This document shows positions 1,766-19,934 of a stretch of 25,506 nt of DNA, in pieces; within the stretch, counting starts at the first letter, position 1; every line of letters begins with the position of its first letter. Below the pieces are notes generated by a model. It worked only from the letters and a program-made list of their open reading frames with translations. It did not search any database and was not told where the DNA came from. The position numbers were made by a program, and so were the translations under genes. The DNA lies in the IMG/VR virus record IMGVR_UViG_3300036715_002701, positions 1-25,506 of that record; one strand, given 5' to 3'. The stretch comes from a virus.

Positions 1766-2233
1766 TTAAGGAAGTTGTGCAGCACCTTGAGGACCAGTTG
1801 TAGACTCCCCTTGGCTACCTTCTTCGTCGGATAGGACTAGTCCGCGCATTGTGAATTGGATTTCGGTGGTTTGCTTGGCAGCCACGGTGTTGTTGAATCC
1901 CAAAACCTTAACCCCTACGATAACAGCTAGTGGTGTGTTGGACAAGCGGTCGTGGATGGTTACGGTAATGTCGTTCAACGTTAGCAAGTCTTGTAGCTTG
2001 CCCATGCGGATGCTGTCCGAGAACGGGCCGTTTTTCATAATACGATAACCAGTAGCAGAGATTTCTACTGGAGCGTATCCGGTGACTTGGATTTCTTGAG
2101 TAGCTTCTGCACCCACGATATCGATATCACGTGAAACCAATTGTACGCCCCACGTGATGGACGAAAAGATGCCTACTAACTTTGGCCCGATAAAGACCTT
2201 GGCTCTAGAGCCGTGTAGAACTTGAGATGCCAT
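1766..2233 (-). CDS. Tail tube protein
   Basis: A 155-residue protein directly downstream of the sheath gene, the usual sheath-tube order in contractile-tail phages. The N-terminal part (VLHGSRAKVFIGPKLVGIF) and the central strands (EIQVTGYAPVEISATGYRI) have the alternating pattern and small size of myovirus tail tube proteins of the XkdM/FI-like group. The tube is the rigid inner channel of the tail through which DNA passes. The last 20 residues are Gly/Ser/Gln/Pro-rich and probably disordered. The gene ends 32 bases before a strong terminator. Function rests on size, position and strand pattern; confidence is good because of the adjacent sheath. Confidence 0.75.
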   Translation of the reverse strand: MASQVLHGSRAKVFIGPKLVGIFSSITWGVQLVSRDIDIVGAEATQEIQVTGYAPVEISATGYRIMKNGPFSDSIRMGKLQDLLTLNDITVTIHDRLSNTPLAVIVGVKVLGFNNTVAAKQTTEIQFTMRGLVLSDEEGSQGESTTGPQGAAQLP

Positions 2234-5371: not shown

Positions 5372-8293
5372 TTATTTGACTTTAAAAATCTTTGACAAGG
5401 CTTCCATGTAGTAAGTAGCTTCCGCCTTGCCCAACTTAGCCTTGGCGTCTTTGTATACCGACATTGGGTCGGTAGCTGGCTGTGCGTTGAATTGTTGAGC
5501 AGCAGCTTGTTCGTTTGCAGGGATTGATGGGTGATCGGGATTGTTGACGCGGTCGTGGATCTCTTGTGTCCACGGTTTATCTGGGGACATCAACTTGTGC
5601 AACTCCATTTCGCCTGGAGAAGCCAATCCATTTTCTACAGCATATTGATTCGTCAAATAATCGCAATGTGCGCAATTTCCACGGGCGTCTACGTGACGAT
5701 CCAATGGATGGCTGTCACCGTTAGGTGCGTTATCTTTGATCCCTCTATAAAGGTGCCCACTTTCCACCTCCATGTCTGGAGACGGAAGCTGACTCATTGC
5801 CAAGTTGTGGCGTTGAAGATAGTCATTATGATGGTCTTCTTTTGCACCTATAGGATCGCGCTCTTGTCGAGCGTGAAAATCTGAGCCGTTATCGTGTTGG
5901 GCTCCCAAAATACTCATTAATTTTTCAAATTCTTCTTGCGGGTCACGCGGCGCGCGGGTCGGAGACAGACTAAAACGCTTACCTTCTTGTCGGCGTAGCA
6001 TCTGTTGTTGCATACGATATTGTCTTTGCTTAATAATCGACCCTGGCTCAAAGTCGTATGAATTTCGTGGAGCATCGTTTAGTTCTGTTTCAACGTTGTT
6101 TGGATGTGGTGGCATAGCAATATACTCGCCGTCTTGATCAGTATATCTTTCGTTTCTGATAGGCTCTGCTGGTTCGAATTCAGCGGGTTGTTGGGAAGCA
6201 CCGCCGTATTCGGGGTGAGCTTGTTGGTCCCAAACGTCATTCTGATCCGGGTCGTCGGTAGGTTGGTTGTACTGTAAACGCGATGCGGCATTACGTCCGA
6301 AGACGTCGCCTTTCACTAACGCCACAATCTGTTGCAAATGGAATCCAGCTTCGGACTTAGACATCTTGCCGGAGCGCATCTTGTCGTACGCTTGTTGGCG
6401 ACCTTGCACGTTAGCCGGATCAGACAATGGCAACCCAGGATCCGTCTTGGCTTCAGACGGATCATAAACTTGACGCTTCTTTGGTTGTGGCGCAGGAGAT
6501 TCCCAAAAGCCACCCAAAGGCTTGCCCACTTTTGGTACACGCTCTCCTACCCCCGGCTCACGAGCACCTTTTGCAGCAGCATATGCCGTAGCTACTTTGT
6601 CTTCGAAGCGCTCTTTGCTCTTAGGGATTGGTGATGGCTTCCCTTGCGGGATGTCGAACGGCGATGCCCCGGGAGTTAATCCCGACTTAGCTTCCGCTTT
6701 GGCTTTTTGCTTTTGATGCGCTTCTTGGATGCGGGAGAACTTGACCGACCCGCGCTCCACGTTGCGTTGGTGCTGCTTTTGACGACGCAAGTCTTCTACG
6801 TGCGCTTGACGATGCGCCAAGTCCATCTTGGCTTCACCACGTTGCGTACGTGTGCGGTCTTCCTTGAATGCGGAAATGTGCTGGGCATCACGCTTGGCTT
6901 GGTCACGTTCTGCTTGTGCAGCCGCCTTTTGCTTTTCGTGCGCTTGACGGATTTGATGCAACTTGTAAGCACCGTACATTGCCGGTACCATGTACTGCAA
7001 GCCGGAATTGAAAGTAGGTGCCGTGGCGTAGTTCGGCATCTCCTTGCGCAAAGGCTGTACGTCCGGCATTGTTTCAATAGCCGACAAACTCTTGGACAAG
7101 GTTTCTACGTAGTAAGCTGCTTCGGACTTACCTAACTTAGCCTTTTCAGCGTGATAAACAGCCATAGGATCGTTGCTGGGTGTAACACTGGCTTTTGCCT
7201 TTGCTGCTTGGTCTGGTCGATTCGGATGATCTTTATTGACAAAGCGCGCGTAAATTTCTTGAGTCCAAGACTCGCCCGGCGACATAACCCGATGTAATTC
7301 CATTTCACCAGGATGCGCCATATTGTGTTTTAAAGCAAAGTCATTTACATGCTTATTGCAATGCGCGCAACTTTTGGTGGCGGGATCGATGTAAGAATCC
7401 AATTCGTGTTCGTCGCCATGCTGCAACGAGTGCATTGGAGCGAATTCGCCCAAATGAATCCCGGGGTTCAAGTTTTTTAATGCGGCGGTGTGATTTTTAT
7501 GACCTTCAACGTGTTTCATTTGTTGTTGATCGTGGTCCAGTTCACGCTCTCCGTCTGACGATAAATACTTTCCTTCTAGGTAAGCATCTTTGTGTCCGGC
7601 ACGGGCATCGGAATGGTGATAGGTCAATTGTTGAATTAAATCATCAAAAGCGATACGAGGACTTGGGTGAACAAATCGACCTTGTACGTCAAGAGGACTT
7701 TCGTCAAATTGCCCCTTGGACAAAGATACGATTTGTTGTAGATAAAATTTAGCTTCACCCTTCGTGATCGGTTTGATATTGGGATTAAAACCCGTTTGGG
7801 CATAAAGATGTTCGCCGCCCGTATTAGCAATGGCGGCTTCTTGCGGATAGATGATTTGGTCCATTGCCGGAGCAAAAGCAGCTTGCGCAATCTTTTCTTC
7901 ACAATGAGCACACTTGCCGTTGGGCTTAACATGCTGATCTAATGGACGATTGCCCCCCAAAGGTAAAGCTACTTTATAGTAATTCGTAGGATGTGGTTGG
8001 TTAAGCGTTTCACCGAATTGCGCTCTTTGCGCTTCATTCTGCGCATTTCCACCACTTCGATGAAACTCGGCTGGGTCCATCAATTGTTCTAGTTCCCCAG
8101 CAGCCGCCAAGTGGGCTTTCTTCTGGTTATGATGGTGAAGAAATTCTGGGCCACCTAACGGTGTAGCACGATCATTGATACGACCGCCATGTTGATGAGC
8201 CGCCAACATGTGCTCAAAGTGAGCTTCACGAATGGCTTTTTTAGCGCCTTCGTTTAAGTCACTCTTTTTGAGCGAAGAAATTTGAATAGACAT
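5372..8293 (-). CDS. Multidomain His-rich protein with three CAHC modules
   Basis: A 973-residue hydrophilic protein with no family I recognise. It contains three copies of a module: a His-rich helical segment, then [H/R]PLD or HELD, then CAHC (residues 128-131, 309-312, 874-877). Copies two and three continue with PGEMELH, a WTQEI segment, a D-H-P segment and DPM-x-VY, and end in KAKLGK-[S/A]-EA. The CxxC pair with conserved His and Asp suggests a structural zinc site. Residues about 443-535 form a long, highly charged coiled-coil-like stretch; 540-640 is Pro/Lys-rich linker. The motif [hydrophobic]-x-K-[S/A/G]-[E/D] occurs at 8-12, 176-180, 387-391, 644-648, 659-663 and 953-957, each near a module border. 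It sits between a disordered protein and the sheath gene, so it is probably a virion protein. Cutting at these sites is my inference. Confidence 0.6.
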   Translation of the reverse strand: MSIQISSLKKSDLNEGAKKAIREAHFEHMLAAHQHGGRINDRATPLGGPEFLHHHNQKKAHLAAAGELEQLMDPAEFHRSGGNAQNEAQRAQFGETLNQPHPTNYYKVALPLGGNRPLDQHVKPNGKCAHCEEKIAQAAFAPAMDQIIYPQEAAIANTGGEHLYAQTGFNPNIKPITKGEAKFYLQQIVSLSKGQFDESPLDVQGRFVHPSPRIAFDDLIQQLTYHHSDARAGHKDAYLEGKYLSSDGERELDHDQQQMKHVEGHKNHTAALKNLNPGIHLGEFAPMHSLQHGDEHELDSYIDPATKSCAHCNKHVNDFALKHNMAHPGEMELHRVMSPGESWTQEIYARFVNKDHPNRPDQAAKAKASVTPSNDPMAVYHAEKAKLGKSEAAYYVETLSKSLSAIETMPDVQPLRKEMPNYATAPTFNSGLQYMVPAMYGAYKLHQIRQAHEKQKAAAQAERDQAKRDAQHISAFKEDRTRTQRGEAKMDLAHRQAHVEDLRRQKQHQRNVERGSVKFSRIQEAHQKQKAKAEAKSGLTPGASPFDIPQGKPSPIPKSKERFEDKVATAYAAAKGAREPGVGERVPKVGKPLGGFWESPAPQPKKRQVYDPSEAKTDPGLPLSDPANVQGRQQAYDKMRSGKMSKSEAGFHLQQIVALVKGDVFGRNAASRLQYNQPTDDPDQNDVWDQQAHPEYGGASQQPAEFEPAEPIRNERYTDQDGEYIAMPPHPNNVETELNDAPRNSYDFEPGSIIKQRQYRMQQQMLRRQEGKRFSLSPTRAPRDPQEEFEKLMSILGAQHDNGSDFHARQERDPIGAKEDHHNDYLQRHNLAMSQLPSPDMEVESGHLYRGIKDNAPNGDSHPLDRHVDARGNCAHCDYLTNQYAVENGLASPGEMELHKLMSPDKPWTQEIHDRVNNPDHPSIPANEQAAAQQFNAQPATDPMSVYKDAKAKLGKAEATYYMEALSKIFKVK
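5390..5932 (-). repeat. CAHC module C (complete copy)
   Basis: Residues about 788-968 at the C-terminus. Order: FEKLMSIL, His-rich hairpin, HPLDRHV, CAHC, SPGEMELHKLMSP, WTQEIH, NPDHPSIP, DPMSVY, KAKLGKAEATYY. Confidence 0.8.
7094..7648 (-). repeat. CAHC module B (complete copy)
   Basis: Residues about 216-400. Order: FDDLIQQL, His-rich hairpin, HELDSYI, CAHC, AHPGEMELHRVMSP, WTQEIY, KDHPNRP, DPMAVY, KAKLGKSEAAYY. This is one of three copies carrying all segments. Confidence 0.8.
7724..8236 (-). repeat. CAHC module A (diverged copy)
   Basis: Residues about 20-190 of the 973-residue protein. It has a His-rich helical start, RPLDQHV, GKCAHC at 126-131 and ends at ITKGEA and LSKG. The PGEMELH segment is missing or replaced. 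Confidence 0.6.
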
Positions 8294-8311
8294 TAGGCCG
8301 CCTTTGTCTGA

Positions 8312-10558
8312 TTATAACCCACCGTGTCCACGAGAAGAACGGCCCATTTGAGAAGCTTTGTGCGCTGCTTCTGCTTGCTTTTTGGCCGCTGCGTCAGACT
8401 TGTGCTTAGTGGACATGTGGAAGGCGGCTAACTTACGGAAAGCGTCAGCCTTATCCTTACGTCCAGCCGCTTCGTGTTCCGCCGCTTTGGCGTTGGCGCG
8501 ATCTGCCGCTTGTTCGTGCACCGACTTCTTTGGCTCGACCGGCGCTGGCGCAGACATGCTCGAAGGCCCCTCACCACGCGTAGCCGGATCGTCTTGCATA
8601 GAACGTCCCGGGCTAGTAGACATTGCAATCGTTGGTCCGGCAGACGACCCGCCCATTTCTGAGCCCATTGCTGACCCAACCATAGACATATTGTCTAACG
8701 CCTTTTGCATGGTGCGCAAAATCGGATTGGACATGATAGCCTTAAGTTCCGGTTCCGAACGACGCAATGCGTGACCACCTGCTCCACGGGCTGCACGCCC
8801 CATCTGCCCCGGCGTGGCCGATGCTACAGCCTTGCCAACTGCCGATGGTCCCATCTTTGTTGCTGGACCACGCACTGCCGGAACCTTGGTCCCTCCCTTT
8901 TGCATAGCCGTATTAAAATGAGCATCCGTAGCCCCATGTGTTTGCGCTAGAGCTTTGTGCTGATCGGCAATCTGCGAAAACTTGTTGTACGAGTCCATGT
9001 CTCCACGGCTTCCGTGGTGGAAAGCTTGGTGCTGAGCCTTGGCGTATTGTGCTACGTGGTGAGGCATCATAATAGAGTCCAAGGCGGATTGGTCACGGGA
9101 AGGTCCAGCCGCTGCTGGACTCGGATTAGCCGCTGGATCTTGCCCGCCACCCTTTTGAACGAAATCCATGTATTTCTGGTGATTTCGTTGATCAATAGAA
9201 TGCGGCCCCTTAACTGCGGTAACGTCGTTTGGAGCTTGGGCTGGTGCCGCTTGTTGTGCAGCCTTAGCTGAAGGACGTGCAGCCCCGGTCTTTTCTTCCA
9301 AAACTGGCGCGCCAATCTGAGTACGGGCTGCCGAAGGATCTTCTTGTGGGGCAGCTTGTTGAACACCTGACGGACTAGTCATACGCCCGTAGTTTTCTTG
9401 AGGGGTTGGCTTGCGGGAAGCTGGTGCCGCCACCGTACCATCGGTCTGACCGCCCATGGCGGGCTGGGTGGCTGCCGCTTGTGGCGCTGCCGCTTGTGGC
9501 GCTGGAGCCGGTGCTACCCCGCCCGGCTGCTGTGTCGCTCCCGTTCCACGTGCTCCACCCGTTTGCATCGATCTTACGGCGTTACCTGCACCGGATTTTG
9601 CAGAACTATAAATCGACTTCAAAGAATCCAAAATCCCCTTGGATAGCGTAGCCGCTTCTGCCTTAGACATCTTTGTTTCTTTTTCTGGCGCGGACTTTTG
9701 TGGTTCTTTGTCGTCTTTTGGCTCCATCTTTTCGCCTGGAACTTTTCCCGCACGAGTCTTGGCGTGCTCTTGCTGAGCGGCATGCAAACGCTTGATATCG
9801 TGCATACCCGGAGTGGATACACCGGTACCAGCACGCTCATTCATAAAAGCTTGACGAACTCCCGAAGCATCTTGCTTAGGAGCTTGGTCGACAGAGTGAT
9901 CAGCGTCCACGGGCTTTTCCTTGGATGGCTTGTCGATCTTGTTGCCCAAGTTATCATCTCCCTTAGCAAAGCCAGCCATAGACATCTTGGGCGCTGTCGG
10001 GGCTTTGGGTGCGATTGGTGCCGCTGCCGCTTTTGGTGCTGCCGGTGGAGTCATGCCCGGAGCTTTGGGCGCTTGTGGCGCAGGTGCGCCAGCTTTGCCC
10101 AGTTCACGACCCATAGAACGGCCCGTGTACCCGGCACGTTTTGCACCCAACGGATTCTTATTGCCGTTCATGGCACCCATAGCGCCCATGCCCGCTTTTT
10201 CTAGATCCCCATCGCCCTTAGCTACCGGGACAACTCCACGCACGATCTTTTCTGCTTCGGCATCGTGCACGATTTTACGGGATTCTGCAACGTCCGCTGG
10301 CGTAGTGCCGTGGCGTTCCGACGCGTCGTTGGCTTTGTCGGACTCTTCCGAATGCTTTTCGCCAGTCGACACTTTGTCGGCTACCGTCTTCTTCTTTTTA
10401 CGCAAGTCGTTCTTCGACCCGACCGGCGTTGCCGCAGGATCTAAGCTCTTGGCTAACGTCTGCGCACCGGTTGGATCTTGGTCGGCAGCTTTTTGCAAGC
10501 GTTCAGTGGCTTCTAACAAAAACTGCGCGGTTTCTTGTGCGGTGTAAGTACGTGACAT
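8312..10558 (-). CDS. Low-complexity Ala/Pro/Lys/Gln-rich protein, probable internal virion protein
   Basis: A 748-residue protein, largely of low complexity: Ala/Pro/Lys stretches around 155-195, Ala/Pro/Gln stretches around 345-370 and 400-445. Ordered-looking parts are two His/Ala-rich helical hairpins, about 497-540 (HHVAQYAKAQHQAFHHG...) and 681-727 (HEQAADRANAKAAEHEAAG...), both of the TPR-like form A-x3-A-x2-H-x-A-x3-G-x2-D. Motifs of the form hydrophobic-x-K-[S/A/G]-[E/D] occur at 112-116, 197-201 and 297-301, and LAKSLD at 36-41. No enzyme motif is seen. Such composition fits scaffold-like, internal or DNA-ejected virion proteins. It ends 18 bases before the CAHC-module gene and is probably co-transcribed with it. 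RBS AAGGA is about 6 bases upstream of ATG. Confidence 0.5.
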   Translation of the reverse strand: MSRTYTAQETAQFLLEATERLQKAADQDPTGAQTLAKSLDPAATPVGSKNDLRKKKKTVADKVSTGEKHSEESDKANDASERHGTTPADVAESRKIVHDAEAEKIVRGVVPVAKGDGDLEKAGMGAMGAMNGNKNPLGAKRAGYTGRSMGRELGKAGAPAPQAPKAPGMTPPAAPKAAAAPIAPKAPTAPKMSMAGFAKGDDNLGNKIDKPSKEKPVDADHSVDQAPKQDASGVRQAFMNERAGTGVSTPGMHDIKRLHAAQQEHAKTRAGKVPGEKMEPKDDKEPQKSAPEKETKMSKAEAATLSKGILDSLKSIYSSAKSGAGNAVRSMQTGGARGTGATQQPGGVAPAPAPQAAAPQAAATQPAMGGQTDGTVAAPASRKPTPQENYGRMTSPSGVQQAAPQEDPSAARTQIGAPVLEEKTGAARPSAKAAQQAAPAQAPNDVTAVKGPHSIDQRNHQKYMDFVQKGGGQDPAANPSPAAAGPSRDQSALDSIMMPHHVAQYAKAQHQAFHHGSRGDMDSYNKFSQIADQHKALAQTHGATDAHFNTAMQKGGTKVPAVRGPATKMGPSAVGKAVASATPGQMGRAARGAGGHALRRSEPELKAIMSNPILRTMQKALDNMSMVGSAMGSEMGGSSAGPTIAMSTSPGRSMQDDPATRGEGPSSMSAPAPVEPKKSVHEQAADRANAKAAEHEAAGRKDKADAFRKLAAFHMSTKHKSDAAAKKQAEAAHKASQMGRSSRGHGGL

Positions 10559-10620
10559 GGTTATCCTTTGTGTTGTGTACTACTGTTGTAACAAATGGCT
10601 TAAAGATTATGGTGTGTCGC

Positions 10621-11688
10621 TTAAAAGGGTTCGTCCTCTAAGACAAATGGCGTAGGGATGGTGCTATCTTTACGCAACGGATTATTCACCGTAGTCCACG
10701 GATCGATTCCCGGTTGTAACGGCACCGGTCCGTCTTTGTTAGAAGCGATTTGCATACATACTGTCAACCCTTGGATTTTAGGCGTGATCGTCTTTGGCCA
10801 GAACTCTTGGATCATCCCGGAAATTTGCAACGATCTATTAAATACCTTTTCTGTACCAAAAACCGGATCTTGAGACATTCTACCAGATGAAATACGGGTC
10901 TGTTCGAAGCCACGGTTTTCGATGTACGCTTCACGATAGCGCAACAAGCAAAACTTGGTCACGGAATATAAGTACATCAAGTTTTGGGCTTTAGTATTGT
11001 CACAGCACAAAACCGAATAGGACTCGCGGAAGCGTGAGCTTTCCAAAGACACCGATAAGTAGTTGTTGGCCGGTACTACCGCCACGAACTTAAACGGACT
11101 TGATAAACCTGTCGTAATGCTAAAAGAAGAATTAGTTTCGATATCAATGATGGGGTAGGACAGCTTTGTTTCCAAGTCGACAACCAACATAAAAGTCGTT
11201 ACCGGAATATCGTTGGGGTTAGTGATGGTCATCTTCCCGGTCGTGGCGTTATAAGAGTTACGATTGGAGTCCACAATAGACAAAACCGTGGCGGCAGGTG
11301 CGTCTTCGTACGGGAAATAGTTCACATCCCCTAACGTAGACTGTTCTTCTGCAGAATCGTTCAAACCGATTACTACGCACGGAAATTTAGGAGAGTCACG
11401 AACGGTGTAGTCCATTAACACGTGGATCTTGGTGTTCAAGAACCAAGTTTTGGCATCTTGCAGGGCTTGGGGACCATATCGGCGTGCCGTCAAGGTGTCT
11501 TGAGACAGCCAAGCAAAGCAATAGTCCATTAATACCGGATACTTTAATAGATCGTCAAATCCGCACTCCAAAGCAGTCTGCAATAGGATGTCTGATTGAG
11601 ACATACCAAACGCAGTCGTAGACCCATAGGCGGGCTCTTTGTAAGTGATTGGGTAGTCTACTAGTGAAGCTTGAATGATCTGGTCCAT
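10621..11688 (-). CDS. Probable neck or tail-terminator type virion protein
   Basis: A 355-residue protein. Residues about 30-90 are helical (SDILLQTALECGFDDLLKY, then a YGPQALQDAKTWF segment), followed by a strand pattern KFPCVVIGLNDSAEEQ (101-116). The last resembles the P-x-[I/V]-x-[I/V]-x-L-x3-E element I associate with tail-terminator and neck proteins of large myoviruses, but this is a weak match. Position between an HK97-gp10-like gene and the tail genes is where terminator or completion proteins are usually encoded. It begins 10 bases after the stop of the gp10-like gene, with RBS AAGGGG. The rest is beta-rich with no metal or catalytic motif. Alternative: another structural protein of the connector or baseplate. 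Confidence 0.5.
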   Translation of the reverse strand: MDQIIQASLVDYPITYKEPAYGSTTAFGMSQSDILLQTALECGFDDLLKYPVLMDYCFAWLSQDTLTARRYGPQALQDAKTWFLNTKIHVLMDYTVRDSPKFPCVVIGLNDSAEEQSTLGDVNYFPYEDAPAATVLSIVDSNRNSYNATTGKMTITNPNDIPVTTFMLVVDLETKLSYPIIDIETNSSFSITTGLSSPFKFVAVVPANNYLSVSLESSRFRESYSVLCCDNTKAQNLMYLYSVTKFCLLRYREAYIENRGFEQTRISSGRMSQDPVFGTEKVFNRSLQISGMIQEFWPKTITPKIQGLTVCMQIASNKDGPVPLQPGIDPWTTVNNPLRKDSTIPTPFVLEDEPF

Positions 11689-11698
11689 GCGCTACCCC

Positions 11699-12445
11699 TT
11701 ACAACTCTTCCAGCTTTGTTTTAATGTTTTTGTCCAAGTTATCTTGCACCCACTGATAAACCACGTCCATCAAAAACTTGCCTTGTAGACCGGGGTGCTG
11801 CCACTTGACGCCCCGGTCTTTTTCTGTTACAACACGGAAAGTAGTGGCGGTTGCTTTGGACTTGGTGGAGTTGCCGGTTTCTTTGTACTTCGTGTCTTGC
11901 AATAGCGGGACTGAATCCGTCGCCTTACCCAACCCGGGCGGAGTCGCAGGTTGCAAGGTCTTCTTGAAGGACGTTCCTTGAGTAATATTAGAAGCCTTCA
12001 AGTCCAACCCCTCTTTGCGGATAGCTTGGTTGACTGCACCCGACAAAGCTTTTTCTTTGGAGGTTTGACCTCCGCCAGCAATCTTGTGCTCAAATGGCAC
12101 TACCATGTACTTGCCGTTCTTGCCTTGCTTTGCTTTAGGTGAAGCTAACATGCCCGGTACCATGTCGTACGGCTTCATACCGGATTCAACGCCTTGAGCT
12201 AGCTTGTCGCCCGGCGAATCTCCCTCGCCTACAGATAACTTGTACCCGTTCTTTTCGGCAGTTAGGCGTATGGCTTGTTGGTAAGCCGCCCGAGAAGAGT
12301 TCAATCTAGACCCGGCTAAGTCGAATAGCTTTTGGTGCGCTTCTTGGGCAGTTTGTGCCACACCTTCATTGATCAAAGCGATGCTACGCGGTGTCAATTC
12401 CTCGACAAAGCGTAGCATGTCTTTCATGTCAATCTTGATGTCCAT
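11699..12445 (-). CDS. HK97 gp10-like tail-completion or neck protein
   Basis: A 248-residue protein that begins MDIKIDMKDMLRFVEELTP with a long N-terminal helical region (about 8-70), a basic Gly/Lys loop region (100-130, VVPFEHKIAGGG) and a C-terminal WQHPGLQGKFLMDVV segment (about 215-229) followed by a helix. This order (N-terminal helices, basic loop, HPG or HPF motif, C-terminal helix) is that of HK97-gp10-type neck proteins, which join head and tail. It lies between the 332-residue protein and the terminator-like gene, in the expected place. Its RBS GAAGGAG is inside the end of the upstream gene, implying translational coupling. The family call is from pattern only. Confidence 0.6.
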   Translation of the reverse strand: MDIKIDMKDMLRFVEELTPRSIALINEGVAQTAQEAHQKLFDLAGSRLNSSRAAYQQAIRLTAEKNGYKLSVGEGDSPGDKLAQGVESGMKPYDMVPGMLASPKAKQGKNGKYMVVPFEHKIAGGGQTSKEKALSGAVNQAIRKEGLDLKASNITQGTSFKKTLQPATPPGLGKATDSVPLLQDTKYKETGNSTKSKATATTFRVVTEKDRGVKWQHPGLQGKFLMDVVYQWVQDNLDKNIKTKLEEL

Positions 12446-12451
12446 GCTAGC

Positions 12452-13450
12452 TTATGCTCCTTCTCCCCCGTCATCACCGCCACCGCCATCGGTGCCGAAG
12501 TAATCCTTGGTAGCTGCTCCAGATACGCCACCAGCTACTTGACCGGACTTAGCCGATACCCAAGTGGTCCCGCCTTCTGGCAAGCGGACTTTTACACGCC
12601 CTTTATGCACCGTCCCCACCGGGATCCCACCATGCCCTTCGTCTTCAGACTTTCCTTCACCTAACTTAGCCCCTTCACCGTCACCTTGTAGCTCTGGCGG
12701 CGTTAACGCCTTGACAGCAGCACTGATACCACGCAAGATATCCACGTGGAGTTCATAAAAGTCTGGATCGGTTTGCTTGAAGGACTCGATCTTCGACGCT
12801 TGCTTTTTGATTTCGTCGGTCACTTCTCCTAGCAGCCCCAACGGATCAATAGCATTCGGATCTTCTGCACCCGGTTGCTGTTCTTCTTGCTTTGCTGGTG
12901 GCGGTCCCATCGCATCCATCTCTTGGTCACTCTTGGGCGTGTCGTCTTCCGCCTTCGACAAAGACTTGTTCAATAGCTTCGGCTGATCGAAGATTTCTTG
13001 TTCTTCACCCAGCATAGGCTCGTGCGACCCCACCAACGCATTCAAGTCTAGCTCCGGGTCTTGCGGCGATAAATCTTGCGCCATTTGTGGATCGTAATAT
13101 TTGGGCTCTACTGTAACCGTGTGTACGCACCAGTCCACAGCCGTTTGACTTTGCTTCAAGTCAAACCCAATCCCTACGTGCACGATCATGCCCGACACAG
13201 CTTGCATGCGCTGCACCAGCCCGTGAATATCTTGGTCAATCTTATCGGCGGGCGCCATCACTACACCACTGCATAATTCCGTGTAGACCACTGACCCGCC
13301 ATTGTTCAACGCCCAGTCAGCCAACATGCGCACCGTAGAATAGCCCCGTGCGTACATTTGGCGAAATCGTTCTGGCGTAATATCGGTTGCTACCGCGTCA
13401 TTCATAGCATCGGCCATGGCTGGGCAGTCGTACGCAATCATCATGTCCAT
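12452..13450 (-). CDS. Unknown two-part protein with possible degenerate palm-like N-terminus
   Basis: A 332-residue protein. Residues 1-120 look like a compact alpha/beta domain: strand MMIAYD (3-8), two helices, strand-turn-strand SVVYTELCSGVVMAP (53-67), helix, strand IVHVGIGFD (89-97). The order and the G-I-G strand resemble palm domains of GGDEF cyclases and CRISPR-type polymerases, with D8 and E58 where metal ligands would lie, but the GGDE/GGDD turn is absent. Residues 130-270 are acidic and disordered, with NKSLSKAED at 161-169. Residues 274-305 (IPVGTVHKGRVKV, TWVSAKSGQV) resemble a short beta module found near C-termini of other phage structural proteins. The tail is Gly/Asp-rich. 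The palm idea is an inference from strand order and could be wrong. Confidence 0.4.
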   Translation of the reverse strand: MDMMIAYDCPAMADAMNDAVATDITPERFRQMYARGYSTVRMLADWALNNGGSVVYTELCSGVVMAPADKIDQDIHGLVQRMQAVSGMIVHVGIGFDLKQSQTAVDWCVHTVTVEPKYYDPQMAQDLSPQDPELDLNALVGSHEPMLGEEQEIFDQPKLLNKSLSKAEDDTPKSDQEMDAMGPPPAKQEEQQPGAEDPNAIDPLGLLGEVTDEIKKQASKIESFKQTDPDFYELHVDILRGISAAVKALTPPELQGDGEGAKLGEGKSEDEGHGGIPVGTVHKGRVKVRLPEGGTTWVSAKSGQVAGGVSGAATKDYFGTDGGGGDDGGEGA

Positions 13451-13468
13451 TGCTGTTCCTTTGCTCTC

Positions 13469-13660
13469 TTAAAACCACGGAGCGGGCGGCGTATATTCAC
13501 GAACAATTAATTCAATCTGTTTTTGCACCAAAGACGCTGCTACAAAGTATTGATTAGCCTTGTTGACGTTACCTTCCGCTTCCGCAGCCTCTCCTTGACG
13601 CACAAAGTCCTCGCGCCACTGGGTTAAGGTTTGAAAAGACACTACGACTTTTTGTCCCAT
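13469..13660 (-). CDS. Small helical-hairpin protein
   Basis: A 63-residue protein, MGQKVVVSFQTLTQWREDF..., with RBS AAAGGAGCC correctly spaced before the ATG and 13 bases after the stop of the zinc-ribbon gene. Residues about 14-53 form two predicted helices around the turn AEAEGNVNKANQYF, the same A-x-G-x3-K-A pattern as TPR-like hairpins and similar to the hairpins in the 748-residue protein. The function is unknown; a small virion or chaperone-like protein is plausible. RBS and tight packing support it as a real gene. Confidence 0.6.
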   Translation of the reverse strand: MGQKVVVSFQTLTQWREDFVRQGEAAEAEGNVNKANQYFVAASLVQKQIELIVREYTPPAPWF

Positions 13661-13673
13661 ATGGCTCCTTTGC

Positions 13674-14324
13674 TTACTTGCGCAACTTATTAATCAAAGC
13701 GTCTATTACATCTGGTGTCCATCCTTTACCGAACTCCACGACCGTGTATGCTTCATACGGTGTAACCGTTGTTACTAAAGAAGATTGGGGTACGTTTTTG
13801 TTGAGTGACCCACATGCACAACCTGTATAAGACGTGGGGCTACCACGGAACCAAGACTGATGACACGTTCCGCAAGACTTGCGTAGTTGGTGATTGAAAA
13901 ACTTTACCTTGCGGTTGGTGCATACGGCGGTGTTATGCAACAAGAATAACCCATCGATGGACTTGGACAGCTTTTGTTTGATATGGGTGTTGGCGTTCAA
14001 CTTGTAATCGGTTACGCCCAGTGCCAATGAAATAGCCGCGATTACTTGGGCTTCGCCAGCTTCCTTGAACAAAAAATTGAATGGGGTGGCTTCACGGTCG
14101 TTCTTAACCAAGCCGTCATAACGCCCATTGGTTTTTACATAAGAAACAGCGATGGGGGTGCCCGGTAGCAGACCCGTGTAAGAAGAATTGTACTTCAGCC
14201 AGCACTTGACGGTCTGCGGGATGATTACGCCCGAAATCTGCGGCAAAATCGAAGCGCTGTTGGATAAGGCTTCGGCGTTGCTGTCCCCCAACACTCCTAC
14301 TAAAAAAGATTGGGCGTAATCCAT
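13674..14324 (-). CDS. Virion-module protein with a zinc-ribbon-like motif
   Basis: A 216-residue protein. The C-terminal part has CGTCHQSWF (151-159) and CACG (169-172), giving C-x2-C-x14-C-x-C, a plausible four-cysteine metal site; H155 follows the first pair. The N-terminal 100 residues are hydrophobic with VIAAISLALGV around 94-104. I do not recognise the family. CxxCH can bind haem in exported cytochromes, but there is no signal peptide, so zinc is far more likely. It lies 3 bases downstream of the stop of the 289-residue gene, within the neck cluster, and is probably structural or an assembly factor. Confidence 0.5.
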   Translation of the reverse strand: MDYAQSFLVGVLGDSNAEALSNSASILPQISGVIIPQTVKCWLKYNSSYTGLLPGTPIAVSYVKTNGRYDGLVKNDREATPFNFLFKEAGEAQVIAAISLALGVTDYKLNANTHIKQKLSKSIDGLFLLHNTAVCTNRKVKFFNHQLRKSCGTCHQSWFRGSPTSYTGCACGSLNKNVPQSSLVTTVTPYEAYTVVEFGKGWTPDVIDALINKLRK

Positions 14325-14327
14325 GGC

Positions 14328-15197
14328 TTATTGACCTTGAATCGGACCAGAGCCATTCAAGGCGCTTGTTCCATAAGAGCCGCTGTTGGGAGACTCTTGG
14401 GTTTGTGCAGAAGCCGTAGAAGTTGGACCATTGTTCTGTTCGTTAAAGAACCCGTACTCTCTTTGGGCGATGATATACATTTGCATTTTTTGTAAGTAAC
14501 GCCCGGGTTGGGATGGGTCCAAGTCACCATCGCCCGGCTCTTGTTGAGCAACGCGAATGTCCTTGGTCAAAGATTTAGCTAACCAAAAAGGGCGGTAGGT
14601 GTAGCGTACGGAATAGCACAAGCCGTTGCCGATATCGTTGACACCCGGACGATTGCCGATCCACTTGATGCGACCAGCGTCAATCACGAAATCGGTCCCG
14701 CAAAAATAAAAGACGCCGTTAGCGTCGACTAAGTGCAAAACATCGACGATAGGGAAGCGGGCACGGTCGATGCCGCTGCGGTGCGCTTGGATGATTTCGT
14801 CTTCCACCACGTCCGGTGGCGTATCCAAGTATTCGAACTTGTCGTACATACCGATATGGATAATTTCACCGGCACTCTTGCAAGAGATTTGGTCATAGAC
14901 GATTGGAAATGTCATGTAAGCAACAGACGAATCGATTTCGCCCAACGCTTGCTGTTGACGATTGGCCGAGTTATTGGAGAAAGCGACCTTCATATCCCCA
15001 GCCACAATAAAGATCATGCCGTTTTGGCAATTGTCGTGTGGCGCATGCGTGGAACGTGCGTCATACTTATCTTGGATCCCAATTGGGCAAATCAAAGAGT
15101 GATAGTGACGCATAAAAACCCCTTGCGAATTGACAAAGTCTTCAAACGCTTCGGGTTGCATCTCTAACTTGCCAAATGGCATGATCGGCGTGGACAT
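14328..15197 (-). CDS. Probable neck or virion structural protein
   Basis: A 289-residue protein. Residues 30-60 (HYHSLICPIG, DKYDARSTHAPHDNCQNG) hold C37, H51, H54 and C57, a possible metal site. A second region, roughly 165-215, reads as strands with FYFCGTDFVIDAGRIKWIG followed by YSVRYTYRPFW; such a D-x-x-I-x-W then Y-x-V-x-Y-x2-x-P pattern recurs in structural proteins of large phages. The last 50 residues are Ser/Thr/Gln/Gly-rich and disordered. The RBS AAGGAGCCGCC is strong. Its place between the 102-residue and zinc-ribbon genes suggests a neck-cluster role. I cannot name the family. Confidence 0.45.
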   Translation of the reverse strand: MSTPIMPFGKLEMQPEAFEDFVNSQGVFMRHYHSLICPIGIQDKYDARSTHAPHDNCQNGMIFIVAGDMKVAFSNNSANRQQQALGEIDSSVAYMTFPIVYDQISCKSAGEIIHIGMYDKFEYLDTPPDVVEDEIIQAHRSGIDRARFPIVDVLHLVDANGVFYFCGTDFVIDAGRIKWIGNRPGVNDIGNGLCYSVRYTYRPFWLAKSLTKDIRVAQQEPGDGDLDPSQPGRYLQKMQMYIIAQREYGFFNEQNNGPTSTASAQTQESPNSGSYGTSALNGSGPIQGQ

Positions 15198-15219
15198 GGC
15201 GGCTCCTTGCGGTTACAAC

Positions 15220-15528
15220 TTACTTGCCACGGACCTTGGCGTCCACTTGTTCAGTTACTTTGACCCAAACAGCCGAATCCTGTTCCAAGCACCAAGCCGG
15301 ATACGGATCGGACTTGTGCAATTGAGTAAACACTACCGTAGGGTGCTTCTTTTGGACAATGTACTTGGCAATGCCGATGTGCGGCGCTACAGCCAAGGTT
15401 TCTACTTCGGTCCCATTCTTCTTGATCAACACTTCTAATCCACCCATCGTGCGGATGTGGATGACCGATTGCCCCTTGATCTCTCCAATAACTTCTTTAC
15501 GCGTGATGTGTTCTGGCTTGATATCCAT
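15220..15528 (-). CDS. Small protein of unknown function
   Basis: A 102-residue protein, MDIKPEHITRKEVIGEIKG..., mixed strands and helices (VIHIRTMGGLEVLIKKNGTEVETLAVAPHIG...), no cysteine pairs or catalytic motif, one cysteine. The RBS is GGGGA, about 6 bases before ATG. The 58-bp gap before it includes TATAAT with an upstream TG, but the spacing would put the start of transcription after the RBS (see rejected items). The gene precedes the 289-residue gene by 22 bases. No family recognised. Confidence 0.5.
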   Translation of the reverse strand: MDIKPEHITRKEVIGEIKGQSVIHIRTMGGLEVLIKKNGTEVETLAVAPHIGIAKYIVQKKHPTVVFTQLHKSDPYPAWCLEQDSAVWVKVTEQVDAKVRGK

Positions 15529-15586
15529 TTTGTTCCCCTATTATAACATGGCGTTACGTTAACTACTTGGTACAGCTTAGTGCGAC

Positions 15587-17155
15587 TTATAACGACTTGA
15601 CGGGCACCATCCCGTGCTTCTCTACTAGCTTGCGGTGTACAGCTTCCGCAGACGGTGCGTGGTCACCGATAACCACGTGCGTGATTCCATGCACGTGGCG
15701 CCCGTGAGCGTATCCGGCTTCGCGCAGAGCTTGCCCGATACCCTTCTTGGAGTGGTTATCGTGGGTAGTAGATTCCATCATAGTTAAATGCGGAATCGCA
15801 CCGTCACGATTAACGTCCATCGATGCCGCGCCCACAGGGCGGCCTTGGTGAGTCGCCGTTATCGCAAACGAAGTTCCATTGGCACCCGGACGCTCACGTA
15901 AGTGGATTTTGTATCCTTCCTTGATAGACTTCACCGGCAACAAATGTGAATAGTCGTAGGACTTGCGGGGGCGTGGGGCACTCCCTTCCGGTTCAGACTT
16001 ATTCAAAGTTTTGTGCGTCGGTAATTTAGCCATATCTTCCGGCGAAGTGTTTTCTTCTGCATAACGGATCATGTTTGGGATGGCGTTCTTGGAGTCTTCT
16101 AATTCATACATAGGCAAGTGGTGTTCCATCCCTAGCGCACGAGCGACGTGGGCGTTGCAGTGTGCACAAGAACCATCCGGACGCAAGTGCTGATCCATTT
16201 CGTGCGGTTGGTACTCGTGACCGACCGGTTCTGCCGGGAAAACAGGAGTTTCCGGCGTTGGCGTAAAGACTCCTCTGTATTTTCCCGTCAAATAGTCTTG
16301 TGGATCATAAAGAGACACTGCTTGATTGGTGTGCTCACTTGACCTCTTGTAGTGACGCTGTTTTCCACTGTTTGGTGACCAATATCTTTCTTCTTGTTCT
16401 TTCCAAGGCGCGTTGTCAAACTGCCCTTGCTTGAACTTTTGCATTCCCATGTTGTGGTGATAGTCGGACAAGCCTTCATGGTCTACTTTTGCTTGATTCA
16501 AAGCTTGATAAATACGCGCTGGCGAAAAAGTAGCGATGGTCGTGTCTCGAAACTTGCCGTCCGCTTTGGCCAAACGTAGTTGTACCACGCGGGCCAAAAC
16601 TTGCTTGACGAATTCGGTTTCTTGTGGAGTGTATTCGGTCTTGCCCAGTTTGGCTTTTTCAGCGCGATATATAGCCATAGGATCGTTTTCGGTTGCATTA
16701 AATCGAGCCCCAGCTTTAGCTTCGTTCGCTGGGATCTTAGGATGCTGTGGATTAGCGGCTCGCTCGTACAGTTCATGCAACCAAGGTTTTGACGGATCGT
16801 CAAATAGTCCAAATTCTCTTTCGCCAGGGTGAGCCAAGCCGGACTCTTCTCCAAATTGATCAATTGCCTCACGACAATGCGCACACTTTCCTGTTTTTGG
16901 ATTAATTTGAATATCTAACGGATGTTTACGCCCGACCGCAGGGATTTTGTAAGCTTTTGGGTAGGTGGCGCTCTCGCCATTCATTTGAAGGTCGTTAATA
17001 GCCTTACTGTGTGCATTAGCAGGCAAGTAATGAACCATACGGTCTTCGTATCGATTCGGGCCTTGGATACTATTTGCCATATCCCAATGTGATTGGCGAG
17101 CACTTTCATGGTCACCACGTAGTCTATTTACTAGATCGTCAAAACTTTCAGCCAT
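15587..17155 (-). CDS. Two CAHC modules fused to a GNAT acetyltransferase-like domain
   Basis: I choose ATG at 17155 (MAESFDDLVN, 522 residues) because AAGGAG lies directly upstream and the frame then starts 2 bases after the preceding stop; an upstream ATG would add 13 residues without an RBS. Domains in order: CAHC module D (5-185, CAHC at 91-94), module E (215-388, CAHC at 330-333), and residues about 410-522, a GNAT-like fold: strands, then the acetyl-CoA loop HSKKGIGQAL (468-477) on a helix, then THVVIGDHA and a helix ending in KHGMVPV. GNATs transfer acetyl from acetyl-CoA to amines; the substrate here is unknown. Motifs LGKTE (170-174), LAKAD (195-199) and LNKSE (384-388) lie between the domains. 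GNAT call is strong in pattern; its role in the virion or host is inference. Confidence 0.65.
   Translation of the reverse strand: MAESFDDLVNRLRGDHESARQSHWDMANSIQGPNRYEDRMVHYLPANAHSKAINDLQMNGESATYPKAYKIPAVGRKHPLDIQINPKTGKCAHCREAIDQFGEESGLAHPGEREFGLFDDPSKPWLHELYERAANPQHPKIPANEAKAGARFNATENDPMAIYRAEKAKLGKTEYTPQETEFVKQVLARVVQLRLAKADGKFRDTTIATFSPARIYQALNQAKVDHEGLSDYHHNMGMQKFKQGQFDNAPWKEQEERYWSPNSGKQRHYKRSSEHTNQAVSLYDPQDYLTGKYRGVFTPTPETPVFPAEPVGHEYQPHEMDQHLRPDGSCAHCNAHVARALGMEHHLPMYELEDSKNAIPNMIRYAEENTSPEDMAKLPTHKTLNKSEPEGSAPRPRKSYDYSHLLPVKSIKEGYKIHLRERPGANGTSFAITATHQGRPVGAASMDVNRDGAIPHLTMMESTTHDNHSKKGIGQALREAGYAHGRHVHGITHVVIGDHAPSAEAVHRKLVEKHGMVPVKSL
15992..16513 (-). repeat. CAHC module E (diverged copy)
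   Basis: Residues about 215-388: hairpin with HHNMGMQKFKQGQFD, HEMDQHL, GSCAHC, then a diverged C-terminal part ending at LNKSE. The PGEMELH segment is absent. Confidence 0.65.
16601..17143 (-). repeat. CAHC module D (complete copy)
   Basis: Residues about 5-185: FDDLVNRL, hairpin, HPLDIQI, GKCAHC, LAHPGEREF, PWLHELY, NPQHPKIP, DPMAIY, KAKLGKTEY. It matches modules B and C segment by segment. Confidence 0.8.
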
Positions 17156-17157
17156 TT

Positions 17158-18426
17158 TTACTCCTTGGATAAAGCGTCCATACAATGTGCGCACGTGGTC
17201 CCGTACTCCGAACCGTCTGGAGTAACCATTGCGTCCAAGTGGTGATTGCCACGGTGGGAAGGGGAGTCGTTAGAAAAGCGCTCGTGACGTTCGGTGTGAG
17301 CGGGTGACAAAAGCTGTTCGGCCAACAAAGCGTGCCCCACGCCCCCGTGATTTTCGTCAGCGTGGTCCAACAAACGACGAATGATCATGGTGTGCTGGGC
17401 GCACTGGTTGTAATGACGTTGTGCGTCATCGGGGCACGATTGCAAAAATTCCCCTAATGTGTGATGGTGACGCTGCGCTTCAAGGTGGTCTGCGATCAAG
17501 TCTCCGATGACACGGATTGGCCCACCGTTCCCGTCGTTGTGCGGATCCATGTTGGCGCCCATTTCGGCCAACATTTCTTCTACGGTACGGTCGTCCGACA
17601 AGTCTGAAGAATCCGACAAAGCGTCCGGTGAAAAATCGTCGAATTTGGTCAAAGGCTGTGTGGCGTCTTCGGCCTTGGACATACCCACCGGCTTGTACTT
17701 GAAGTCCCCTTCCTTGCCGCCGTGCTTCAAGTGCAAGAACCACTGGACGTAAGCGTCATTAGCTACAGTCTTGGGGTCTTGCAACCCATGGTGATTTGCA
17801 CCGTGACGCCACGCAAATGCCTTACGGGCGTCGTCTGGGAAAAACTTTCCGATACGATCCCATGTAGTGTTGGCTAGCTTATTATAAAAAGCGTGGTCAT
17901 TGCGCATCTTTTCAGTAAACTTCAAGTCATCATCGGCAACGTGCGGGTATTCTTGCTGCAGAGCCTTGGTCTTGTTGTAAACTTCCTTAGCTGTGAACGG
18001 TCTTAAGCCCACGGTCCCTTGCGCTGTATAGAACGGTCCACGTGAATCGGGATAGTGGTTTACGTTCTTACCCCAGTGTGATTCTTGGAAGGCCAAGTGG
18101 TGTAGATCGGGGTTCATTTCAATCCACAAATCTGGTTGGTTACCTTCAGAACCATCGGGTGAGTGCCACAACGTATGCAAGTGCTTATCGTTGACGGCGC
18201 CAGCGCCCGCTCCTTTGCCCACCTCTTGCATCAAGTGGTTCGACGGATGAGCTACAGGCTCCGGAGACGAAGTCGTCTGTGCGGGGCTGCTAGCGTGCGT
18301 GGTGGCTTCTTTTGGTGCAGCGTGTTGCATGTGTGCTGCACCAAAACCGCCCGACATCAATAGCGCTGCCGCAGCACCCGCTGCTTTGGGTAGTCCTTTT
18401 TCTAGTGGTTCTTTTTCAGTATCCAT
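17158..18426 (-). CDS. Lysozyme/transglycosylase-like protein with C-terminal CAHC module
   Basis: A 422-residue protein. Residues 11-33 are Ala/Gly/Leu-rich and mildly hydrophobic. Residues about 108-235 resemble a virion lytic transglycosylase (SLT/goose lysozyme type): AFQESHWGKN (112-121) with E115 as candidate catalytic acid, AQGTVGLRPFTAKEV (135-149) in the place of the usual G-x2-GLMQ-x-P-x-TA, and KAFAWRHGANHHG (202-214) in the place of the late A-x-A-Y/W-x2-G motif. Such domains cut peptidoglycan during DNA entry. A border motif MSKAED (249-254) follows, then an acidic linker and module F (303-422, CAHC at 412-415) at the very C-terminus. TAATG overlap with the upstream gene and GGAGGA in its end imply coupling. 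The enzyme call needs a profile search. Confidence 0.6.
   Translation of the reverse strand: MDTEKEPLEKGLPKAAGAAAALLMSGGFGAAHMQHAAPKEATTHASSPAQTTSSPEPVAHPSNHLMQEVGKGAGAGAVNDKHLHTLWHSPDGSEGNQPDLWIEMNPDLHHLAFQESHWGKNVNHYPDSRGPFYTAQGTVGLRPFTAKEVYNKTKALQQEYPHVADDDLKFTEKMRNDHAFYNKLANTTWDRIGKFFPDDARKAFAWRHGANHHGLQDPKTVANDAYVQWFLHLKHGGKEGDFKYKPVGMSKAEDATQPLTKFDDFSPDALSDSSDLSDDRTVEEMLAEMGANMDPHNDGNGGPIRVIGDLIADHLEAQRHHHTLGEFLQSCPDDAQRHYNQCAQHTMIIRRLLDHADENHGGVGHALLAEQLLSPAHTERHERFSNDSPSHRGNHHLDAMVTPDGSEYGTTCAHCMDALSKE
17161..17520 (-). repeat. CAHC module F (C-terminal, truncated copy)
   Basis: Residues about 303-422: hairpin (DLIADHLEAQRHHHTLGEF), HHLDAMV, then CAHC and six more residues to the stop. 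The segments that follow CAHC in modules B, C and D are missing. Confidence 0.65.
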
Positions 18427-19934
18427 TATTGTCCTCCATTTGGACGGAACTTGTTTTCAGACAACCACGATTCGTCAGCTTGCTCAGCCATTCGACGCAT
18501 GTGCTTGGCTGCCGACTTCAAGCGTGTGTCAAATCCACGACGCATGTCATCCGTAATCGGGCGACCTGTTCCTGCTTGCAAGTTATCGAAGAACTTTTTA
18601 CGGTGATCTTCATCGTTCAAGTGCGAGAACAAATAACCGATAGCCTCTTCGTCCGGATGATTTCCTTTTGCTGCGCCAACATGATGTGTCTTAGGGGAAA
18701 TCGGTGCGTCGGGATGTACCCCCGGATTTGGAAAATAACGTTTACGTAAGTTACGTACCGTATCACGGGTTTTGGCGTCTGGGATTGATTCAATCAAATT
18801 CGTTGATAGATTTTTGCGCGCTGCTGGTCCATACTTAGAATGAACTTGGTTTAAAGTAGCATGCCAGTTTTCGTGATTTTCGATGCCCGGCTCGTGGGTT
18901 TCTTGTTTGATGTATCCTAGCTTGGGCGCATCAGGCAATGGTGACGCTACAGCCGCACGATTGTGGGTGCCTTGATACGTCTGCAATACTTTCTTGTAAC
19001 GGTCGGGGAATGACGCTCCGGGACTTTTGCGCGCTGTAGCATGTGCAATCAACTTTTGCTTCAAGTCGGTCTGGGCCGGATTGGTGATAGGGATTTGACG
19101 CGTGGTATCCTTGACCCCTAACTTGGGCATAGCAAAAGGCGTTTGGGCTTTGGCCATGGGCGCCTTGCGACGGTTCTGGAACAAAGCGGGGACAGCCGTT
19201 CCTGCTTGACGCTGAAAGTGCTTGTACGCTATACGGTTATGATCATCGTGCGCCATCTCTTCGTTCGGAGTCAACATCATAAGATTGGTCGTCATAGCAC
19301 GAGTCTCAGGATCATTTAAGTGAGAAATCGTGTTGGCGATTATTTCTTCGTTGAAGGCGTCGGAATCGTCTGGATCGTATCCTAAACTTTTGGTGTGCTC
19401 AACCAAGTGCTTGAAAGTGTTTTCAGGCAGCCCTTTGATCATGTGATTGATCAAAGCTCGCTTCCCCTTAAGACCATAACGATGCCCGACTTCAGCAAAA
19501 GCTGCGTGTTGAGCTTCGTGATGGGTAGTCCCATTCAGACTTTTGTTAGTGTATGGGGCCAGCGGTAAACCCGCTTCACGAAATTTGTCGAAGTAAGTGG
19601 GCGAGCGAGCAAATCCCGTTTTGGCGGTTTGCCCAGCTACATTCAAATCGGTTAGCTCGGGTTCAGTACCGGATTCGTGCCCCAAACGATGATCAGCAAT
19701 CTTTTGTTGACGAGGAGTAGAAATTGTTTGAATATTATGTTCGTGACGACCAATCCCTAAGCCTGGGAAAGCAAAGCTCGGACGTGACTTAGCCAAGTCT
19801 TCGGACTTTTTGACGTGCTCAGGTAGCTTGCCATGCGTCACAGAAGCCCAATGCGCTGCCGTACCTTTAGGTAGCTCTCCGGCGGCTTCCTTGGCATAAA
19901 TCAAACGGCGCTGTGCTTGGCTGCGAAATGGCAT
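18426..19934 (-). CDS. Tandem HExxH metallopeptidase-like protein
   Basis: A 502-residue protein. The N-terminus MPFRSQAQRRLIYA..., ending LPEHVKKSE (37-45), is a short basic segment seen at the start of other phage proteins. Then follow two related domains. Each begins with AK-[S/A]-x3-FA-x-P-x-LG (48-60 and 261-273), carries HExxH (H139-E140-A-Q-H143 and H354-E355-N-W-H358), and later EE-[I/A]-I-x3-[I/F]-SHLND (196-208 and 429-441), the second E being a candidate third zinc ligand 58 and 75-76 residues on. That is the gluzincin pattern HExxH...E. The duplication is clear; whether both are active peptidases and on what substrate is unknown. Its stop overlaps the next start. It could process neighbouring virion proteins or act in the host. 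Confidence 0.6.
   Translation of the reverse strand: MPFRSQAQRRLIYAKEAAGELPKGTAAHWASVTHGKLPEHVKKSEDLAKSRPSFAFPGLGIGRHEHNIQTISTPRQQKIADHRLGHESGTEPELTDLNVAGQTAKTGFARSPTYFDKFREAGLPLAPYTNKSLNGTTHHEAQHAAFAEVGHRYGLKGKRALINHMIKGLPENTFKHLVEHTKSLGYDPDDSDAFNEEIIANTISHLNDPETRAMTTNLMMLTPNEEMAHDDHNRIAYKHFQRQAGTAVPALFQNRRKAPMAKAQTPFAMPKLGVKDTTRQIPITNPAQTDLKQKLIAHATARKSPGASFPDRYKKVLQTYQGTHNRAAVASPLPDAPKLGYIKQETHEPGIENHENWHATLNQVHSKYGPAARKNLSTNLIESIPDAKTRDTVRNLRKRYFPNPGVHPDAPISPKTHHVGAAKGNHPDEEAIGYLFSHLNDEDHRKKFFDNLQAGTGRPITDDMRRGFDTRLKSAAKHMRRMAEQADESWLSENKFRPNGGQ
18525..19157 (-). repeat. Metallopeptidase-like domain 2
   Basis: Residues about 260-470, starting MAKAQTPFAMPKLG. Contains HENWH at 354-358 and DEEAIGYLFSHLND at 428-441. 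It repeats domain 1 in motif order. Confidence 0.65.
19200..19796 (-). repeat. Metallopeptidase-like domain 1
   Basis: Residues about 47-245, bounded by AKSRPSFAFPGLG and ending before MAKAQTPFAMP. Contains HEAQH at 139-143 and NEEIIANTISHLND at 195-208. Confidence 0.65.

Follow-up and report, generated by a model that had tools for sequence, protein, structure and literature searches.

A recurring motif between domains of phage head-cluster proteins as a probable cut site of the prohead protease

A short motif, Phi-x-K-[SA]-E (Phi, a hydrophobic residue), recurs in the head-gene cluster of a contractile-tail phage and very probably marks the sites where the phage's own capsid-maturation protease cuts long multi-domain proteins into single domains, although no N-terminus has been measured for any of these proteins and the protease is inferred from related phages (probability about 0.8). 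The window, that is, the whole 25,506-nucleotide stretch analysed here (IMG/VR record IMGVR_UViG_3300036715_002701), is a fragment that contains a tail sheath, a tail tube and a run of head-cluster genes. The only annotated relative found was Myxococcus phage Mx1 (169,621 bp), whose sheath is 40% identical over the whole length and whose gene order from head to sheath matches. The original prediction, made from the sequence alone, held that a hydrophobic-x-K-[S/A/G/T]-[E/D] motif lies at domain borders in six proteins and may be a polyprotein cut site. All the motifs it named are present, one more was found in a 102-aa protein, and its interpretation is supported by our analysis.

Positions and features of the head-cluster motif sites and of associated sequences (coordinates refer to the window unless another sequence is named; strict, [LIVMF]xK[SA]E)
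Coordinates	Strand	Feature	Remarks
1766-2233	-	Tail tube
2270-5236	-	Tail sheath	Marker linking the window to Mx1 and the protease-bearing contigs; no strict motif
5372 to about 21,000		Run of head-cluster genes
5372-8293	-	973-aa multi-module protein (CAHC modules)	Six motif sites, three of them strict; no Pfam or PHROG hit
8258-8272	-	LKKSD (aa 8)	Weak form
7754-7768	-	ITKGE (aa 176)	Weak form; before helix-like EAKFYLQQIVSLSK
7121-7135	-	LGKSE (aa 387)	Strict; directly after a CAHC module ending DPMAVYHAEKAK
6350-6364	-	MSKSE (aa 644)	Strict
6305-6319	-	LVKGD (aa 659)	Weak form
5420-5434	-	LGKAE (aa 954)	Strict; directly after the C-terminal CAHC module
8312-10558	-	748-aa Ala/Pro-rich protein	Weak sites VAKGD (aa 112) and FAKGD (aa 197), one strict site (aa 297)
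9656-9670	-	MSKAE (aa 297; MSKAEA)	Strict
12947-12961	-	LSKAE (aa 164; LSKAED) of the 332-aa protein	After its N-terminal domain (homologue of Mx1 70340, mCpol-like)
15307-15321	-	LHKSD (aa 70) of the 102-aa protein
15587-17194	-	535-aa protein	Two CAHC modules and a C-terminal GNAT domain
16634-16648	-	LGKTE (aa 183)	After first CAHC module
16559-16573	-	LAKAD (aa 208)
15992-16006	-	LNKSE (aa 397)	Strict; Lys 12 residues before the GNAT homology begins
15593-15964	-	GNAT domain (aa 411-534)	Homologous to a GNAT unit in the polyvalent proteins of Mx1 and related contigs G014 and G018
17158-18426	-	422-aa protein	Lysozyme-like domain (aa 104-239) and C-terminal CAHC module
17668-17682	-	MSKAE (aa 249; MSKAED)	Strict
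18426-19934	-	502-aa protein	N-terminal module, then two HExxH peptidase-like domains (HEAQH aa 139, HENWH aa 354)
19800-19814	-	VKKSE (aa 41; VKKSED)	Strict; between N-terminal module and peptidase domain 1
19143-19157	-	MAKAQ (aa 260)	Related site, between the two peptidase domains
19800-19934; L035, 31-1092		N-terminal module of the 502-aa protein; similar module in contig G001
Mx1, 13002-16721		Mx1 prohead protease
L040, 7158-7928		SPO1 gp3.2
Mx1, 24404-28843 (about aa 1047-1085)		Segment preceding the Mx1 lysozyme-like domain
G005 (L027-L034), 30209, 41432, 43299, 43723, 106255		Small head-cluster proteins with N-terminal tag	Single cases in L068, L077, L080, L091
12452-13450; Mx1, 33963-35369

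In the head block of the window, the broad pattern of the original prediction occurred 16 times against 4.33 in composition-preserving shuffles, and the strict core [LIVMF]xK[SA]E occurred 8 times against 0.68, with none of 2000 shuffles reaching either value. About a quarter of the 16 sites could therefore be due to chance. The other window genes had one and zero hits, respectively (1.27 and 0.19 expected). It should be noted that some sites are not independent, since the LGKxE sites of the 973- and 535-aa proteins end paralogous CAHC modules. These modules recur six times in three proteins (the 973-, 535- and 422-aa proteins), and several of them end in DPMxVYxxxKAKLGK directly before a site. 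No Pfam match was found for them.

To test whether the motif is specific to head genes, we pooled the window, Mx1 and six related IMG/VR contigs (G010, G011, G013, G014, G016 and G018). The portal-to-sheath genes of these eight genomes or fragments (91,249 aa) contained 104 strict sites against 16.3 expected (z 22.7), while the remaining genes (255,480 aa) contained 33 against 32.5. In the head block, the reversed motif (15 against 16.1) and the K-to-R version (12 against 11.6) showed no excess, and K[SA]E without a hydrophobic residue at -2 was hardly enriched (60 against 51). Sequences with D at +2 (26 against 14.1) and with G or T at +1 (44 against 22.5) were weaker variants, and PhixK[SA] without E/D was barely enriched (267 against 204, compared with 240 against 203 for the reversed form). 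Forward sites exceeded reversed sites in each of the eight (window 8:0, Mx1 16:0, G010 19:0, G011 10:1, G013 27:5, G014 11:5, G018 9:3, G016 4:1), although sites in homologous proteins are not independent, the excess was modest in G014, G016 and G018, and a few of the open reading frames in the unannotated contigs may be wrong because they were called mechanically as the longest non-overlapping ones. A more distant lineage, G005, showed strict sites mainly in its scaffold. As a control, the same method applied to T4 head proteins recovered the known [LI]xE site of gp21 as a forward excess (55 against 28.9, reversed 29 against 29.1), most strongly in scaffold gp22, while PhixK[SA]E was absent there. 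Thus, a head-specific and direction-specific excess is what a prohead-protease site looks like.

The sites lie outside and beside predicted domains. In 21 long multi-domain head-block proteins, none of 44 strict sites and none of 66 broad sites fell within Pfam stretches, where 7.4 and 11.2 were expected (p = 0.0002 and p < 0.0002, respectively). These stretches included ART-PolyVal (PF18760), NUDIX, GNAT, kinase and YunG, although Pfam stretches cover only part of each domain. The 1479-aa protein of Mx1, which holds ART-PolyVal, NUDIX, GNAT and YunG, is a polyvalent protein by Pfam, and the window 535-, 422- and 502-aa proteins share domains with it or with its counterparts in related contigs. 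GNAT units in G010, G011 and G013 are bounded by sites on both sides, reading VSK↓SE...FGK↓SE, ITK↓SE...FGK↓SE and MAK↓SE...FGK↓SE, respectively (the arrow marks the proposed cut). Pfam and PHROG searches gave almost nothing for most window proteins, and AlphaFold models of the 422- and 535-aa proteins, computed without an alignment, were too poor to place domain borders (mean pLDDT 36.7 and 40.5). The borders in the window were thus taken from homology to other phages. No close relative of the 973-aa protein was found in IMG/VR, and no relative of the sheath was found in bacterial genomes.

The positions of the sites beside lysozyme-like and peptidase domains are conserved across phages, whatever domain follows. 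Measured from the start of the lysozyme-like homology, the site Lys lies at +147 in the window, +148 in Mx1, +136 in G018, +146 in G011 and +143/+148 in G014. In Mx1, the lysozyme-like domain is preceded by LSK↓SWKSAFAGALAAAGMSTASMAADPAQAE, which looks like a signal peptide that a cut at LSK↓S would expose. After the peptidase domain, MAKAQ of the window matches sites in G011 and G014. In the 102-aa protein, K and S are invariant among four phages that are only 25-30% identical to the window protein. Varied codons encode the sites (14 distinct 9-mers in the 16 sites of Mx1, with both Ser codon families), which points to selection on the protein and disfavours a DNA-level repeat or recombination site.

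The relatives encode an SPO1-type (S78-like) prohead protease. The annotated prohead protease of Mx1 matches SPO1 gp3.2 and its relatives by tblastn and belongs to the same PHROG (phrog_1028), and gp3.2 passes the Peptidase_S78 cut-off. A scan found at least 80 contigs with this protease, and all ten of those tested also had the window-type sheath. However, the 25.5-kb window contains neither protease, capsid protein nor scaffold. A search with PF04586 found nothing in it, although that model also misses the Mx1 protease. No protease was found in contig G001 either, though its capsid protein and scaffold are of this kind. The motif also occurs in scaffold and portal, and the SPO1 scaffold has 11 PhixKS in 244 aa (0.72 expected). 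Capsid proteins of the group carry an N-terminal arm with L-x-K-[AT], with Lys in 41 of 41 in an alignment that did not require it, Leu at -2 in 38 of 41, and Ala or Thr at +1 in 38 of 41. PDB 5lii holds a full 463-aa capsid protein, probably that of phi812, whereas 9row/9rox/9roz hold a 439-aa chain that lacks the first 24 residues and starts just after VVK. We read the shorter chain as the mature N-terminus, which is an inference from the deposited sequence and favours a cut after Lys and before Ser/Ala. Furthermore, the prohead proteases of Mx1, SPO1 and many of the other sequences examined (L041-L120) carry, after the protease domain, a close copy of the N-terminal arm of the capsid protein (in Mx1, FAK↓AMEAGNFNAAPSTLQGGSALQ against capsid LRK↓AMEAGNFNAKPSTLVQGSAMQ), which may dock the protease on the shell or be its own processing site.

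Based on these results, we propose that Phi-x-K↓[SA]-E is the recognition site of the phage's own SPO1-type prohead protease. During head assembly, the scaffold, portal, capsid-protein arm and multi-domain proteins would be gathered in the prohead, where the protease would trim the capsid arm, shred the scaffold and split the polyvalent proteins at their linkers into single domains (GNAT, lysozyme-like, peptidase and CAHC modules), which would be carried in the head and injected. Cleavage, the bond that is cut, packaging and injection are all inferred, and only gene position suggests the last two. In the window, the strict sites would yield a GNAT fragment of about 136 aa from the 535-aa protein, separate lysozyme-like and CAHC parts from the 422-aa protein, and separate N-terminal module and peptidase parts from the 502-aa protein. 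However, capsid arms lack the E at +2 that cargo sites need, implying that one enzyme would have to accept two contexts. If the proposal is true, a sequence motif alone reveals which genes of these large phages encode head-packaged proteins and where each effector domain starts and ends, and it would connect capsid maturation proteases with polyvalent proteins, two subjects studied apart, and show that tailed phages make polyproteins with inter-domain cuts, as animal viruses do. We further speculate, with odds only slightly better than even, that these phages use a true polyprotein strategy, in which interchangeable domain cassettes bounded by prohead-protease sites are strung together in one gene, co-packaged by one scaffold signal and cut into separate effectors inside the capsid. 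This would let effectors be swapped by recombination without building new packaging signals.

SPO1 and other Herelleviridae share with the relatives a homologous protease, a capsid arm of the form L/V-x-K↓[SA] and a scaffold full of PhixK[SA], and such sites were seen in scaffold, portal, protease and capsid protein of SPO1, whereas here multi-domain cargo proteins carry them between domains with Glu at +2. In T4 (gp21, LxE↓) and SPN3US (gp245, AxE↓), a phage protease likewise cuts head and internal proteins at a short motif, but the cut follows Glu, and the reported SPN3US cuts remove N-terminal propeptides (13 of 14; PMC10052503) rather than splitting proteins domain by domain. Polyvalent proteins with GNAT, NUDIX, ART-PolyVal, kinase and zincin domains were described previously (PMC5512222), and processing by zincin or assemblin-like domains within the proteins was proposed, with no shared cut motif named in the section consulted. 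The HK97 capsid protein, to which the original prediction compared the motif, appears to be cut after Lys103 and before Ser104 and is thus similar in form, but this is a single capsid site without cargo polyproteins. No description of a Lys-cut motif in phage cargo was found in the open literature searched, which does not cover most subscription journals.

Among alternative explanations, it is possible but unlikely that the same protease cuts these sites after Glu (K-x-E↓), as in T4 and SPN3US. In favour of this, E is a fixed position after K. However, the capsid arms of the same protease group read L-x-K-[AT]-[LIM] without Glu at the matching place, the deposited phi812 chain starts after Lys, and Ser/Ala at +1 fits a small residue after the cut. 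It is also doubtful that the motif is an uncut docking or capsid-targeting tag that binds scaffold or protease. Several sites in the window precede a short amphipathic segment (EAxYYLExLSK-like), and T4 internal proteins probably carry targeting peptides. However, a tag is needed once per protein, yet sites flank individual domains on both sides and occur many times in scaffolds, and the match is to residues around a capsid-arm cut. Cutting by the zincin-like HExxH domains of the 502-aa protein, which lie next to sites and resemble domains proposed to autoprocess polyvalent proteins (PMC5512222), is improbable as a general mechanism, since Mx1 and G010 have 16 and 19 strict sites, but the head block of G010 has no HExxH and that of Mx1 has only matches in other contexts, one at the start of the lysozyme-like domain. 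Chance or the K-, A-, S- and E-rich composition of linkers is very unlikely to explain the motif, since shuffles preserving composition are exceeded sixfold, the reversed and K-to-R controls show no excess, and positions are conserved across phages.

Two N-terminal segments may be related to targeting. The 502-aa protein begins with a module MPFRSQAQRR...HGKLPEHVKK↓SED, and G001 has a similar module ending VAK↓TE. This is a candidate capsid-targeting module removed by the cut. In addition, the second lineage, G005, has small head-cluster proteins with an N-terminal tag like KNGQW[SRTV]LxK[SAM], again ending in Phi-x-K, which is possibly a targeting tag with a cut site.
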